DNA of 32,583 nucleotides from an uncultured Bacilli bacterium (GTDB taxonomy: Bacteria; Bacillota_I; Bacilli_A; RF39; UBA660): NCBI GenBank assembly GCA_947588935.1, contig CANQAU010000005.1, forward strand, positions 1-32,583, read 5' to 3'. The notes under the pieces are model-generated. The model saw only the letters and a program-made list of their open reading frames with translations. It did no database searches and had not been told where the DNA came from. A program made the translations under genes and the position numbers. The number at the start of each line of letters is the position of its first letter. The first letter of the stretch is position 1. This document shows, one piece after another, positions 8,720-30,767 of the stretch.

Positions 8720-9586
8720 TCATAAAACCCTGTTTTTTATTGCCTTCGGAAGTTTATCTTCCGTGTATTGTTCGCTTTTTTTGTATTGTTCTGTAATTTC
8801 TGTTACGTAAGTCATATTGAGCTGAAAATTTTTATCTTGGGCGATTTTTTTCCATATTTTTGCTAAGGTTAGATTTTTCTTTTGCATGTATAATTGGCAC
8901 CATAAATCTTGTTCTTCTGGGGTAGCCTTTTGAAAAAATTGATCCATCGTTTTCCGTGGTGAAATGGTTTGAGACATGCGACTTGGTTGGAGCAAATAAT
9001 TGTTTTCATAAATGCGGGTGCCAATATCCGCATAATAGGCAAAATCGTATAGCGGGGAAAGTCTTATGATATTTTCACAGATAAATTCTGTTTGTCGAAT
9101 ATTTAAATCACTATCTCCAAAAAGAATTTGAACTATAAATTTTTGGGTGATTTCTCTTTTTAGTTTTTCTAATACTTCCTTGTTTGAATTTTGAAAATAC
9201 CAATTGATTGCATTTTTTATATCCACAACATTATATAATTCTTGCCATCTTAAATCCATTTGTGAGGATAAGAAAGCCTCATACTTCTTTAATAAATCCC
9301 GCATTTTCATGATGGGTGCACGATTTGGATTATAAGTTTCGGTAATAACACCTGAAGCATCTTCAACTCGAGCAAAATCATAATTTACGTTTGGTATTTG
9401 AAGCGCATTTAAAACATAACTATAAAACACTTCTTTGTATGCTTTATATTCTGATTCTCTTTTAAATAAATAGGGTTTATTTTGATACCAAAACCAAAAG
9501 GCCGCACTTTCTCCATCGTGAGAATTACAGTACTTTATAATCTGGATATTTTTTAACTTTAAAAAGCCATTTTTCCTTTTCACCAT
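8720..9586 (-). CDS. HipA/CtkA-like kinase-fold protein
   Basis: PYLFKRESEYKAYKEVFYSYVLNALQIPNVNYDFARVEDASGVITETYN and FIVQILFGDSDLNIRQTEFICENIIRLSPLYDFAYYADI resemble the HipA-type layout (GD..L.N + L.P.YD). Fold assignment is by motif only. Confidence 0.6.
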   Translation of the reverse strand: MVKRKNGFLKLKNIQIIKYCNSHDGESAAFWFWYQNKPYLFKRESEYKAYKEVFYSYVLNALQIPNVNYDFARVEDASGVITETYNPNRAPIMKMRDLLKKYEAFLSSQMDLRWQELYNVVDIKNAINWYFQNSNKEVLEKLKREITQKFIVQILFGDSDLNIRQTEFICENIIRLSPLYDFAYYADIGTRIYENNYLLQPSRMSQTISPRKTMDQFFQKATPEEQDLWCQLYMQKKNLTLAKIWKKIAQDKNFQLNMTYVTEITEQYKKSEQYTEDKLPKAIKNRVL

Positions 9587-25251: not shown

Positions 25252-26337
25252 CCACTCACCTTTGCTTTTAAGACGGACTTTATCATTTCTCGTATATCTC
25301 CGTCTAGAATTTTATCTACATTACTATTTTCATATCCACTTCGTAAATCTTTAATTAATTTATATGGCTCTAAAACATAATTCCTGATTTGTGATCCAAA
25401 TTCGTTGCTACTTGCTTGTCCTTTTATATCATTTAATTCTTTTTCCTTTTTTTCTTCTTCTAATTGATAAAGTTTACTCTTTAATATTTTCATAGCAATT
25501 TCTTTATTCTTCATTTGACTCCGTTCATTTTGGCAAGTTACCACAATTTTGGTTGGTAAATGGGTAATTCGAACGGCGGAATTGGATGTATTCACCGATT
25601 GTCCTCCTGCTCCACTACTATGGTATACATCGATTTTTAAATCGGTTTCTTTGATTTCAATATCTACTTCTTGATTAATTTCTGGTGTTACGGTTACGCT
25701 TGCAAAACTGGTATGTCTTCTTGCATTGGCATCAAATGGAGATATTCTTACCAAACGATGAGTCCCTTTTTCTCCTTTTAAATAGCCATAGGCAAATTCT
25801 CCTTTGATTAAGAGAATCACACTTTTTATACCTGCTTCTTCTCCATTTTGCTCATCAATGACTTCATAATTGTATCCCTCTTTTTCACAAAATCTTTCAT
25901 ACATTCTTAGAAGCATACTTGCCCAATCACATGATTCGGTTCCTCCAGCACCCGGATGAATTTCTAAATAGCAATTACAATTATCAAATTTTCCATTTAA
26001 TAGGGTATCGATTTCTAATTCGGAAATCTTTTTTTCTAACGCCAAAATTTCGTTTGTTATTTGTTCGAATTCATTTTCTTCCATTAACTCTATAAGCATT
26101 TTGGTTTCTTGGATTTCTTTGGCCGCATTTTCTACGTTATCTACTATTTTCTTTAACGTTGCACAGTTTTTATTGACTTCATTGGCATGGTCGATGTCAT
26201 TCCAAAAATCGGTGGCGGACATTTCTCTTTCCAATTTGGCAATCTCTTCTTTTTTTCCCTCTAAGTCAAAGAGACCTCCCGATGTCTACTATCTTTTTTT
26301 CTAGTTCATTTAATTTGGTCAATAATTCGGATTTCAT
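25248..26337 (-). CDS. prfB: Peptide chain release factor 2 with programmed +1 frameshift
   Basis: Main frame has HPGAGGTESCDWASM and SSGAGGQSVNTSNSAVRITH (GGQ). Short 5' frame MKSELLTKLNELEKKIVDIGRSL-TGA at 26266-26268 with GGGAGGTCTCTTTGAC; +1 shift joins DLEGKKEEIAKLEREMSATDFW. Confidence 0.95.
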
Positions 26338-26359
26338 ATACATCCTCTTTTCTATTTTT

Positions 26360-26408: not shown

Positions 26409-27803
26409 TTAATATGTAATTTTTCTTTGTCTTTTCGGATGTTTTTTTTCTAAAGGGAAAATTAAATCTCGATCGACTAATACAATGGGATATTCTTTAA
26501 ACCATTCTGGTAACAATTCGGGATTGGGATCATCGGCATCTTGATAGGAGTCTAATAAAAGACAATTATCACCGGTTTTTCCTTTTATTAAGGTATCGTA
26601 ATGACGATATCCTAGACGGTTTAATTCCATTTGAAATTTGGATAAGATTTCTGAAGGAACTTCTTTCGCGCTTCGTTTTAAAAATGGTTGAATTTCCAAA
26701 CCTGCTCTTACTAATCCGATCGAATCACGAATATATTCTTCTTCTAAATTCTTAATAATTAAGTATAAATTTGGACAAATGATTTTTTCATATGACCATT
26801 TGTAATTGATTAGTTTTATGACATAGTCTCCAAGTCGATAACAGGTTGAGGTTGTACCTTCTGCGATAAAATAAGTATCTTTTGATTGACTTAATGATAA
26901 GTACTTTTCTACATATTCCTCTAATTTTCTTCCTAAGCGATGAATATAAATATTGATGAGTGCATCATCATATCTTTGATCTTTTTGAAATGAATTTAAA
27001 ATTTTCCGATAGGATTCTAAGATGTTTTTTGAGATATATTCAGAATAATCGATTAGCAGAAAAAAACGAAAATCAATGGAAGTTGTAAAAAGGCGATCAG
27101 CATCTTTCTGAAATTCTTCTTTTCCTTTGTTTAATTCTTCTTCTCTGTTTTTTATCCCAAATGGCACATCTAATAATAAAGATGCTAATGTATTTTCTGG
27201 ATAATTTGCAAAAATAAACGTTTTTATTTTGTTCCAGTAGACATCTTTTAAGGGAGATTTTAAGATATGAATGGCTAGTAGGCACACCTCATCCATGTCC
27301 ATTAACTGATTTTGTGTATTATCTTTTAGATATTTTATGAGATCATCAAATATTTGATTGAATTTTTGGGGTTGGTGGTTGATGAGATAGTTCATGAATA
27401 AATATCTTATATGCAAATTGTTCGATTGTTTAAAAAAAGAAATGAATTCCGCTGATTTGATTGGATACTGTACTAAATATTCAAAAATGATTTCTATTTT
27501 TGTATTCGTCTGGTCTGCAATTTCTTCTTTATGTTTCCATAAGTAATCATAACCCCATGTTGTTTCAAATAACATATATTTCAATTGCTCAGAAGTTGAG
27601 TGTTGATAACTTAATTTTTGCTCCAAAAAGAAAAGTGTCGGTTTTTTCAAAAGTTGATGATTATACATAAGATTAAAACAAGCCTTGTGAAGAAAGTCTT
27701 CGAATGGTTCTTTTATACTTTGAAGCATTTTCTTTTTCGTGATAAATTTGACACTTTTTTGATTCGGTACAGTTCCATTTTTTTCGCTTTCAACCTGTTT
27801 CAT
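26409..27803 (-). CDS. Uncharacterised protein with kinase-like C-terminal region
   Basis: C-terminal AEGTTSTCYRLGDYVIKLI (P-loop/beta3-Lys-like), LGYRHYDTLIKGKTGDNCLLLDSY, PIVLVDRDLIF; start at MKQVESEK (27803) with GGAG SD. TATAAT lies inside the longer listed ORF. Confidence 0.65.
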   Translation of the reverse strand: MKQVESEKNGTVPNQKSVKFITKKKMLQSIKEPFEDFLHKACFNLMYNHQLLKKPTLFFLEQKLSYQHSTSEQLKYMLFETTWGYDYLWKHKEEIADQTNTKIEIIFEYLVQYPIKSAEFISFFKQSNNLHIRYLFMNYLINHQPQKFNQIFDDLIKYLKDNTQNQLMDMDEVCLLAIHILKSPLKDVYWNKIKTFIFANYPENTLASLLLDVPFGIKNREEELNKGKEEFQKDADRLFTTSIDFRFFLLIDYSEYISKNILESYRKILNSFQKDQRYDDALINIYIHRLGRKLEEYVEKYLSLSQSKDTYFIAEGTTSTCYRLGDYVIKLINYKWSYEKIICPNLYLIIKNLEEEYIRDSIGLVRAGLEIQPFLKRSAKEVPSEILSKFQMELNRLGYRHYDTLIKGKTGDNCLLLDSYQDADDPNPELLPEWFKEYPIVLVDRDLIFPLEKKHPKRQRKITY

Positions 27804-27836
27804 GGAATCTTTCTCCACTCCTTTTTTGATAGCGGT

Positions 27837-27845
27837 ATTATAACA
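27837..27845 (-). promoter_or_regulatory. Putative extended -10 promoter of the kinase-like gene
   Basis: Minus strand GTGTTATAATACC (TGTTATAAT). Confidence 0.5.
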
Positions 27846-27872
27846 CGCTTTATACATAAAAAATATTCGGAA

Positions 27873-28403
27873 TTAGCGAATATTTTCTTCTTGTTCTTTA
27901 ACCCTTTTTAAACATTTATGGCGAAAGATTAAATTGTTTTCTGATTTTTCCATACAAGATTGTTCTGTCCACTCCTGTTCATTATATGCTGGAAAATAAG
28001 TATCTGCTAAAGGAAAAGTGGAGTCGATTTCTGTAATCCATAAAGAACTTACATTTGGTAAAAATATTTTATAAATGACTCCGCCCCCGATTACCCAAAA
28101 ATTTTCAGTTGGATTGGAAGATATTATCTTTAATACTTCTTCTGGACTATGACAAACGATTTTTGGTTTTTCCAAAGTGTACTCTTTATTTTGTGATAGG
28201 ACAATATATTGTCTACCAGGTAAATTTTTGGGCATGGAATTATAAGTATTTCTTCCCATAATCACATGCGAATTCATCGTTGTATTTTTAAAAAACGTTA
28301 AATCTTCTTTAATTCTCCATATTAATTGATTGTTATATCCTATTTCTCTGTTTTTTCCCATTGCAACAATCATTCCAAGATTGTTATATACTTGTTTACT
28401 CAT
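27873..28403 (-). CDS. folA: Dihydrofolate reductase
   Basis: GMIVAMGKNREIGYNNQLIWRIKEDLTFFKNTTMNSHVIMGRNTYNSMP, FWVIGGGVIYKIFL. Confidence 0.95.
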   Translation of the reverse strand: MSKQVYNNLGMIVAMGKNREIGYNNQLIWRIKEDLTFFKNTTMNSHVIMGRNTYNSMPKNLPGRQYIVLSQNKEYTLEKPKIVCHSPEEVLKIISSNPTENFWVIGGGVIYKIFLPNVSSLWITEIDSTFPLADTYFPAYNEQEWTEQSCMEKSENNLIFRHKCLKRVKEQEENIR

Positions 28404-29847
28404 TTGCATTTTCCTCTTCTATGACTAAGCCTTCTTTTAGTCTTTTTCTACCTCCGACAGTGAATTTGGCTTTTTCATCTCTTTTTGGCACAATTACGTG
28501 CGCATGTAGGCGTTTTAAAGATGCTCCAGAATAAGATGGGTCTCCAAATCTAAAGCACAAGGCCCCACCCGGAAGATTGTAATGGCTCTGTAATGCTTGC
28601 CATATTGCTTGCAGTTCTTTCCACATTGGTTCTGTAATGTCTTCCGTTTTATAGATTGGATAATTGGCGACAATCAAAAATTGATGCTCGATTCCATTAT
28701 ATGGAAATTTGTTTTTTGTAATAAACCAATAGTTAAATCTTTGAATAATTTCTTGATTAATATATTGCGCATCTAATGGATCTTTATTTTCTTTTTCCAT
28801 GTTGATCATGATATCTAATTGTTCTTGTTCGCGGGCATTTGGTGGATAAATATATTTATATGTTGGCAATTCTTTTTCTATCTCTTTTGGCTTCATTTTT
28901 TGTTCCGATTTGATAAAATTCAATTGAATTGTTTTGATTCCATGGGCAGAGGCTAATTCATGGCTTCTTTTGCTCCAATGACGATCGGGATGATCTTCTA
29001 TATAAAATATTTCGGTTACTCCTTTATCAATTAATACTTTCATGCATTTATCGCATGGAAATAAAGTTGTATATACGGCTGTGTTTAATTTTTCAATATT
29101 TCCAACCTTTTTTAACATATTGATTTCGGCGTGTTCTACTGTAGAATAATATAGTTCCGTGCGTTGCTCAATATCATTTGGTGATAAATTCATATCTACT
29201 TGGTTTGAGCCAAAATACCATTTTCCGTTGATAAAGCAGCAAGCTGATACTGGACATTTGGTATCGGTAGAATGGTATAAATTTTGAATTAAAGCGGGAA
29301 TTGGTTCAGGTAATGAATCTTGATAACCGATTCTTTTTTTCGTTTGTTCTACTGTTTCGAAAACCTTTCCGTCAATTTCTTTTAATTTTTCAGCTTGACT
29401 TGCAATAATCACTTTTCTTATTTTATCCGATGTTGATGTTTCGGATTGTCTTGGTAAAATTTTTACTTCTCCTACGTAATTTTTTAGTTCTTCGATTTGC
29501 GTATCGTTGTAATTTTCTTTGATGGCAATTAAAACATCTGGTCTGATTTCTTTAATTAATTGCCATTTCGGCTCATTTGCAGGCTTGATAATAATGGAAT
29601 TTGCGACCCCTAGTAACTGGATGAAGTCATACCTTTCTTCTTCAGGAATAATGGGACGGCTATTTCCTTTTCTTTTTTTGATTTTTTCGTCACTATCCAT
29701 TGCAACGACTAGATAGTCACACGATTCTTTTGCTTTTAGTAAATATCTTAAGTGCCCAATATGGAACAAATCCCATGATCCTTGGACTAATCCGATTTTC
29801 TGACCATTTTTCTTTGCTTCTTTAATTTTCTCTAATTCTTGATTCAT
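28396..29847 (-). CDS. Three-domain fusion: HIGH-type nucleotidyltransferase + dCMP/cytidine-deaminase-like + HIT-like
   Basis: GLVQGSWDLFHIGHLRYLLKAK with TSTSDKIRK; TVEHAEINML + TTLFPCDKCMKVL (HAE...PCxxC); FPYNGIEHQFLIVANYPIYK ... GASLKRLHAHVIVPKRD (HIT-like). Confidence 0.85.
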   Translation of the reverse strand: MNQELEKIKEAKKNGQKIGLVQGSWDLFHIGHLRYLLKAKESCDYLVVAMDSDEKIKKRKGNSRPIIPEEERYDFIQLLGVANSIIIKPANEPKWQLIKEIRPDVLIAIKENYNDTQIEELKNYVGEVKILPRQSETSTSDKIRKVIIASQAEKLKEIDGKVFETVEQTKKRIGYQDSLPEPIPALIQNLYHSTDTKCPVSACCFINGKWYFGSNQVDMNLSPNDIEQRTELYYSTVEHAEINMLKKVGNIEKLNTAVYTTLFPCDKCMKVLIDKGVTEIFYIEDHPDRHWSKRSHELASAHGIKTIQLNFIKSEQKMKPKEIEKELPTYKYIYPPNAREQEQLDIMINMEKENKDPLDAQYINQEIIQRFNYWFITKNKFPYNGIEHQFLIVANYPIYKTEDITEPMWKELQAIWQALQSHYNLPGGALCFRFGDPSYSGASLKRLHAHVIVPKRDEKAKFTVGGRKRLKEGLVIEEENANE

Positions 29848-29849
29848 GA

Positions 29850-30767
29850 TTAAATACCTACCGGGATGTCCTTAATTTTTTCTCCAGCATGATAATCGGA
29901 TAATTCAAAATCTTCTCGACGATAGTCAGAAATATTTGGATGTGTTTTTACTAGTTTTAGTGTTGGGAAAGCCTGGCTTGGGCGACTTAAAATTTCATCC
30001 ACCCATGGTAATTGATTTTCATAAATGTGTGCGTCACTGATCATATGAACAAATTCGTATGGAACTAAATTTAAAATTTCAGACATTGCTAATAATAACG
30101 CCGTATATTGTGCCCAATTACTTGGAAGGCCAATTAATAAATCACAACTTCTTTGAAACATGACCATGCTTAATTTGTCTTCTAGTATCCGAAAATGAAT
30201 CCAACCATGACATGGTGCAACGACTACTTTTTGTTGATGATCTGCATTTCGAATTGTGTATTGGGGAATCCAAGGAGAAATAAAATGCGTTTTTAATTCT
30301 GGTCTTTCTTTCATTTGTTTTATTATTTCTTCAAACTGGTTAAATGTTTTTCCATCTGCAGTCGGAAACGTAGCAAACGCAGCTCCATAAGATCCTGGTC
30401 CTAAATCTCCTGCTTCTAAGCCTCTTTTTTGACATTTTGCAGGAGTTGCCCAAGACTTCCACCAACGGCAACCAAATTTAACTAATTCTTCTTGGGTGTG
30501 AGCTCCATTTATAAATGCACACAATTCACCGATTGCAGATCTATAAAATCCAGAAATATCTCTTTCTGTGATAATGGGTGCTCCATTTTCTAAAATATTA
30601 AAACGTAATGGAGTTGCTCCCATGTAATCAATTGTTCTTATTTCTTTTCCGTCTTTATCGACCATCGGGGATGGGCTCCATATTCCTTTTTCGAGTACCT
30701 CTTTTATTAAATTCTTATATTGTTCATCGGGCACTCTCTCGTCATATGGTTTATATACACTTTCCAT
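29850..30767 (-). CDS. thyA: Thymidylate synthase-like protein (divergent)
   Basis: VVVAPCHGWIHFRI (catalytic Cys), FQRSCDLLIGLPSNWAQYTALL, MISDAHIYENQ; GAGGAGG SD. Confidence 0.88.
   Translation of the reverse strand: MESVYKPYDERVPDEQYKNLIKEVLEKGIWSPSPMVDKDGKEIRTIDYMGATPLRFNILENGAPIITERDISGFYRSAIGELCAFINGAHTQEELVKFGCRWWKSWATPAKCQKRGLEAGDLGPGSYGAAFATFPTADGKTFNQFEEIIKQMKERPELKTHFISPWIPQYTIRNADHQQKVVVAPCHGWIHFRILEDKLSMVMFQRSCDLLIGLPSNWAQYTALLLAMSEILNLVPYEFVHMISDAHIYENQLPWVDEILSRPSQAFPTLKLVKTHPNISDYRREDFELSDYHAGEKIKDIPVGI

Follow-up and report, generated by a model that had tools for sequence, protein, structure and literature searches.

Synthesis of dTMP is thought to pass through free dUMP, by way of either ThyA or ThyX. 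Two further classes of enzymes are relevant to what follows: HIGH-type nucleotidyltransferases (NTs) couple nucleotides to phosphates, and HIT enzymes cleave such phosphoanhydrides via a nucleotidyl-histidine. Fosfomycin is made through such a cap: a HIGH-type cytidylyltransferase puts it on the substrate, Fom3 carries out the methylation while it is in place, and FomD takes it off (PMC8158854). Activation with a nucleotidyl group is a common feature of phosphonate pathways (PMC6697681). Here, we analyzed a stretch of 32,583 nucleotides from an uncultured Bacilli bacterium (the window), in which a protein with NT, zinc deaminase, and HIT domains is encoded between thyA and dfrA. Together with ThyA and DfrA, this fusion very probably constitutes a self-contained module for dTMP synthesis.

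The fusion is encoded by a single 483-aa open reading frame (ORF; 28396 to 29847, minus strand), with the motifs that the initial annotation had described, and the opposite (plus) strand of this interval is riddled with stops. Its start lies 2 nt after the end of thyA (...ATTTAA TC ATG), which codes for a divergent, module-type thymidylate synthase of 305 aa (29850 to 30767, minus strand; PF00303, 2.2e-58), and its 3' end is overlapped by 14 nt by the start of dfrA, coding for a dihydrofolate reductase of 178 aa (27873 to 28409, minus strand; PF00186, 6.6e-46), so that the tight spacing and the overlap reported earlier both hold. Matches to promoters and terminators were no more numerous than in shuffled sequence. 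A 482-aa ORF that lacks a Pfam or NCBIfam match worth naming follows dfrA after 15 nt and is possibly cotranscribed with it (26409 to 27857, minus strand); in addition, prfB (release factor 2) carries a site for programmed +1 frameshifting of the classic kind, GGGAGG TCT CTT TGA C (26230 to 26340, minus strand), the listed ORF beginning after the site. Elsewhere in the window, a 288-aa ORF between rplI and ssb (8720 to 9586, minus strand) looks by eye like a HipA-like kinase.

All three proposed domains are present, the NT and deaminase domains by Pfam and the HIT domain by a profile match and structure prediction. The NT domain (aa 1 to 150; 29398 to 29847, minus strand) matches rfaE_dom_II (1.8e-27) and, over aa 21 to 134, PF01467 (cytidylyltransferase-like; 7.6e-17). 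It holds both the HxGH and the (I/S)STxxIR-type motifs of the HIGH nucleotidyltransferases (CTP_transf_like), namely FHIGH at aa 28 to 32 (29752 to 29766, minus strand) and TSTSDKIR (29416 to 29439, minus strand), which is part of TSTSDKIRK at aa 137 to 145; residues H29, G31, H32, S138 to S140, and R144 are invariant in the homologs. In an AlphaFold model of the whole protein, this first third matches NT folds, and its Foldseek matches comprise HldC, the ethanolamine-phosphate (ECT), glycerol-phosphate (GCT), and choline-phosphate (CCT) cytidylyltransferases, and the Fom1 CyTase. The nearest NCBIfam model, that of the HldE/RfaE-C heptose-1-P adenylyltransferase (TIGR02199), scores 96 bits, well below its cut-off of 181.5. 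The second domain is a dCMP-type zinc deaminase (aa 193 to 310; 28918 to 29271, minus strand), covered by PF00383 (cytidine/deoxycytidylate deaminase; 1e-8) at aa 194 to 282. The HAE...PCxxC zinc motif of the CDA fold is formed by HAE at aa 239 to 241 (29125 to 29133, minus strand) and PCDKC at aa 264 to 268 (29044 to 29058, minus strand), and it is kept in the homologs, one of which has HSE. Foldseek matches this domain to dCMP deaminases (2hvw and 2w4l); the ComEB model reaches 28 bits against a cut-off of 219, and dCMP is a putative substrate. The anti-phage dCTP deaminase model (NF041025) was rejected: it has a cut-off of 400 bits but scores 36.8 here, with a match limited to the deaminase region.

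The HIT domain (aa 331 to 483; 28399 to 28857, minus strand) is only weakly recognizable in sequence: with the single window sequence, PF01230 stayed below threshold (0.21), and a profile built from the domain matched FHIT at 0.0018. A separate AlphaFold model of the last third was obtained with a pLDDT of 82.7 (about 83) and a pTM of 0.77, the model of the whole fusion having a mean pLDDT of 74, and every one of its 50 best Foldseek matches in the PDB belongs to the HIT superfamily, with Ap4A phosphorylase, HINT, and FHIT closest among these 50. Because the FHIT profile match and the modeled structure agree, the last third, as predicted, is a genuine HIT fold. Its catalytic triad is altered, as had been noted: RLHAHVIVP (aa 446 to 454; RLHAH at 28498 to 28512, minus strand) includes the putative nucleophile His448 and has arginine in place of the first histidine. 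This arginine is fixed in all 19 members of the gut clade described below, which carry R-x-H-x-H rather than the complete HxHx(H/Q), and every fused protein retains the last two histidines of the triad. The Patescibacteria HIT relatives examined all have histidine at the first position (HxHx(H/Q/N)).

The same three-domain fusion is found in 13 further Bacilli-type metagenome-assembled genomes (MAGs) from the gut, 14 with the window, and five Saccharibacteria MAGs encode an NT-deaminase ORF (315 to 371 aa) followed by a HIT ORF (160 to 181 aa). These 18 homologs share the domain order of the window's protein, which goes beyond chance, and are 46 to 64% identical to it (best aligned segment), the 13 fused ones 47 to 64%. 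As for the two neighbors in the window, thyA lies directly upstream in 19/19 gut loci (clipped by the contig end in L017), and dfrA was seen directly downstream only in the window and in L004. Overall, the linkage to thyA and dfrA noted initially is supported.

A separate-gene form of the module exists in the ultra-small Patescibacteria, the bacteria in which the gene set is mainly conserved. Among 380 sampled genomes, an NT-deaminase profile found NT relatives in 27, and 20 of these loci were opened to about 12 kb. Every opened locus contained thyA, HIT, and NT, with the deaminase adjoining the NT (its ORF in L080 fell under the first-pass threshold and was recovered at the same place by a deaminase profile), which puts the set of thyA, HIT, deaminase, NT, and usually dfrA in 20 of the 380 Patescibacteria. 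The usual layout is two convergent operons, [thyA-(dfrA)-HIT] facing [NT-deaminase]; a true DHFR is present in about 14 of the 20 loci, and DHFR and HIT are fused in L087, L091, and L093. Since the Patescibacteria deaminase profile retrieved the same 20 of 380 genomes, plus one partial match, NT and deaminase strictly co-occur in this sample. The deaminase bears an extra N-terminal domain here, with invariant PxxHxGY, Arg, and FLRW motifs, which line up with those of the NT domain without reaching significance (p about 0.05); it may be a second domain of NT type. Many of these modules adjoin rplK/rplA/nusG, and beyond ribosomal and housekeeping genes the only further recurrent nucleotide gene nearby is that for dUTPase. 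In two loci (L085:4779-6227 and L086:4996-6522) the module NT has an added N-terminal domain of ~300 aa, HD-like by eye, with Pfam naming the NT part only, and in two related Patescibacteria a second HIT protein adjoins the module (L077:6993-7571 and L080:4474-5049).

We also found a second version of the set, in which L185, L193, L195, and L196 each hold one operon of tandem NT, HIT, a small dCMP-type deaminase, and a thymidylate synthase (TS)-like protein of 510 to 550 aa of a different, archaeal type (clipped by the contig end in L195); in L194, NT and HIT were seen before the contig ends. The neighborhood of L195 includes, by eye from sequence, a thymidine kinase and an anaerobic-type ribonucleotide reductase. 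These operons indicate that NT, HIT, and deaminase accompany a thymidylate synthase even of another kind. The initial annotation had suggested regulation, salvage, or nucleotide modification as roles for the terminal domains; their stable partnership with deaminase and TS in another phylum and with two TS types points instead to NT and HIT being steps of the pathway rather than add-ons to it.

Next, we considered how module genomes obtain dTMP. The sampled ones each encode a single PF00303 protein, which is that of the module, and among 31 module genomes ThyX is present in one and a full-length thymidine kinase in three; in the window's genome (assembly 88% complete), searches for ThyX and thymidine kinase found neither. 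dCTP deaminase (Dcd) is encoded in 0/31 module genomes compared with 27/37 Patescibacteria with canonical ThyA (Fisher p = 5e-11, ignoring relatedness and with the best PF00303 scorers as comparison genomes). A dUTPase is encoded in 22 of the 31, in several adjoining the module; these genomes therefore have a source of free dUMP, which ThyA might use as its substrate. Relatives of the window's organism show a different inventory: those of the same genus possess a single-domain dCMP deaminase of the ordinary kind instead; G003, the one among them in which a ThyA was detected, carries a different, non-module type; and relatives in the family use thyA-dfrA. From the ordinary deaminase and the non-module ThyA in the genus, the module appears to have taken the place of the usual genes in the genome of the window. 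With all this, dTMP is the predicted product of the module.

To obtain a closer view of the synthase itself, residues were numbered after E. coli ThyA (a sequence that agrees with PDB entries as expected). The window's ThyA is a bona fide family member (PF00303 as above; TIGR03284, 142 bits against a cut-off of 108), with its catalytic-position Cys186 at 30210 to 30212 (minus strand), and in 37/37 module ThyAs C146, E58, W80, Y94, R166, D169, N177, and H207 are kept. The exceptions concern the dUMP phosphate site, formed by R21, R126', R127', and R166: R21 is kept in 2/37 and R127 in 3/37 (Thr in 29), and R126 is Lys or Arg. The window has Pro, Lys, Thr, and Arg at the four positions, Lys159-Thr160 (30288 to 30293, minus strand) corresponding to R126-R127, whereas none of the residues named here is lost in the canonical ThyAs (47/47), which come from Patescibacteria and Bacilli. 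Substitutions of the R127 equivalent in the Lactobacillus casei enzyme are tolerated, and the mutants are still active on dUMP, so loss of R127 is no proof in itself. Two basal module ThyAs (L090 and L092) keep both R126 and R127. For the second TS type, the R126-R127 position reads DKG or DRG beside the trio of NT, HIT, and deaminase; where no trio is adjacent, it reads RR in three relatives (n = 3) and DKG in L189, L191, and L201. A dCMP hydroxymethylase-like activity of the module ThyA was rejected because Asn177, typical of uracil-using TS, is kept in 37/37. Separately, eight divergent ThyAs from module-less Patescibacteria (L159 to L166) have Asp for Asn177 and Gln or His for Arg127, like dCMP hydroxymethylase-type TS, with DNA modification as a possible role.

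We propose that the nucleotide bears a temporary cap while it is processed, a reading that we favor tentatively and hold at somewhat short of even confidence, cap, substrates, and order of steps being inferred. The NT would join a nucleotide to a deoxycytidine nucleotide via a phosphoanhydride, either as dCTP + R-phosphate -> dCDP-R + PPi or as NTP + dCMP -> NppdC + PPi; the deaminase would convert capped dC to capped dU; ThyA, with its remodeled phosphate pocket, would methylate capped dU; HIT would cut the anhydride via a nucleotidyl-histidine, freeing dTMP and recycling the cap; and DfrA would regenerate tetrahydrofolate. In this way, dTMP would be obtained with neither a pool of free dUTP nor dCTP deaminase. 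Both chemistries (a phosphate ester joined to dCTP, or an NTP to dCMP), and ThyA acting either before or after uncapping, would be compatible with the sequences. A capped dU nucleotide would explain the constant NT and HIT, a ThyA that no longer needs the full phosphate site, and a dispensable dCTP deaminase. The initial proposal that the deaminase probably supplies dUMP is supported as far as feeding thymidylate synthesis is concerned, although "dUMP" may be too simple in view of the partner ThyA's pocket.

Several observations favor this capped route: the trio lies beside a TS in 19 gut loci, 20/20 opened Patescibacteria loci, and four second-type loci; Rosetta-stone fusions link NT-deaminase-HIT, NT-deaminase, and DHFR-HIT; the module is the only thymidylate source in most of its genomes, with Dcd missing; ThyA has lost R21 and R127 and kept its other residues, with DKG or DRG in the second-type TS beside the trio; the catalytic residues of NT, deaminase, and HIT are invariant, the first triad histidine excepted; relatives in the window's own genus carry an ordinary deaminase instead; and fosfomycin offers a precedent for the logic, its CyTase being one of the proteins that the NT matches in structure. 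Against it count the dUTPase in 22/31 genomes, the intact R126 and R127 of L090 and L092, the arginine in the gut-clade HIT triad, and the DKG of three TSs without an adjacent trio. In other organisms, moreover, dCMP deaminase and ThyA alone suffice for dTMP.

Alternatively, and with a lower but appreciable probability, the capped route might extend to dUMP only, with the NT making dCDP-R, the deaminase dUDP-R, and HIT releasing dUMP for an ordinary ThyA, so that the trio replaces dCTP deaminase plus dUTPase. The absence of Dcd from 31/31 module genomes would suit this, as would the physical fusion of the trio in Bacilli and its occurrence with two TS types, but the loss of R21 and R127 and the DHFR-HIT fusions would be left unexplained, and dUTPase is retained in 22/31. 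Rather unlikely, in our view, is a conventional dCMP deaminase plus ThyA/DfrA, next to which NT and HIT make and destroy a regulatory nucleotide signal or protectant or clear by-products. Both families include signaling or housekeeping members, Ap4A phosphorylase, HINT, and FHIT being the closest folds, and the deaminase is closest to dCMP deaminases; yet such constancy is rare for regulators, deaminase and TS having both NT and HIT with them in nearly every opened locus, and the ThyA pocket change would find no explanation. We consider it improbable that the product is instead some other pyrimidine nucleotide modified at C5, destined for DNA modification or secondary metabolism: ThyA is divergent and natural-product pathways use nucleotidylated intermediates (PMC6697681, PMC8158854), but this ThyA is the sole TS in sampled module genomes, most of them without ThyX and thymidine kinase, many Patescibacteria modules sit beside rplK/rplA/nusG, and Asn177 is kept throughout. 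Finally, although homologs with a separate HIT exist, a fusion created by an assembly error or made inert by dead domains can be dismissed, since 13 independent fused homologs from different MAGs, 14 Bacilli-type genomes in all, conserve the fusion with invariant catalytic residues.

With regard to origin, the gut clade (Bacilli plus Saccharibacteria) forms a 100/99 group among the Patescibacteria module sequences in the ThyA tree, and the ThyAs from the family of the window's organism lie elsewhere in it. The fusion occurs in 1/392 Bacillota genomes, the window's own, which rules out a common Bacillota gene. Phages, plasmids, and viral contigs yielded no full-length homolog, their matches covering the NT or the deaminase alone, and a phage or plasmid origin is rejected on this ground. 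Taken together, tree placement, rarity in Bacillota, and the lack of full-length phage or plasmid homologs fit a lateral transfer between Patescibacteria and gut Bacilli, the latter probably having acquired the module from the former or exchanged it with them; the tree would agree with a joining of NT-deaminase and HIT in Bacilli as well as with a renewed separation in Saccharibacteria. Our overall picture, held a little more loosely than the capped route itself, is that of a new thymidylate route via a capped intermediate that may have arisen in Patescibacteria with two TS types and then reached gut Bacilli, where three of its enzymes are fused.

If this is true, cells would have a further, new means of making a DNA precursor, and "cap, modify, uncap" chemistry would have a new example in primary metabolism. 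The module also gives a testable account of thymidylate supply in some Patescibacteria that lack ThyX, thymidine kinase, and dCTP deaminase, and it documents that a core pathway has passed between Patescibacteria and Bacilli in the guts of animals. The literature searched, which covered few subscription journals, held no published description of the gene set or of the ThyA arginine site, and two papers that mention CPR/Patescibacteria ThyA treat it as ordinary.

Among known systems, the canonical thyA and dfrA with dCMP deaminase (ComEB/DCTD) share with the module a TS, a DHFR, and a dCMP-type deaminase acting together; in contrast, the module adds constant NT and HIT, its ThyA lacks two phosphate arginines, and its deaminase is fused and lacks the usual SKDPS/YNGxPxG stretch. 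The dCTP deaminase route, like the one proposed here, leads from dCTP to dUMP without free dUTP, and Dcd and the module are mutually exclusive in our sample, but that enzyme has an unrelated dUTPase-superfamily fold and comes without NT or HIT. The anti-phage dCTP deaminase has a zinc deaminase domain in common with the fusion, which in turn sits in a biosynthetic operon. With FHIT, HINT, and Ap4A phosphorylase, the module HIT shares the fold and the middle and last histidines, whereas in the gut clade the first histidine is Arg and sequence similarity to solved members is weak. The fosfomycin set of Fom1 CyTase, Fom3, and FomD follows the same logic of capping, methylation, and uncapping (PMC8158854), and the NT fold matches the Fom1 CyTase; it differs in belonging to secondary metabolism, with a phosphonate substrate, a radical SAM methylase, and, in FomD, an uncapping enzyme that is not of the HIT type.
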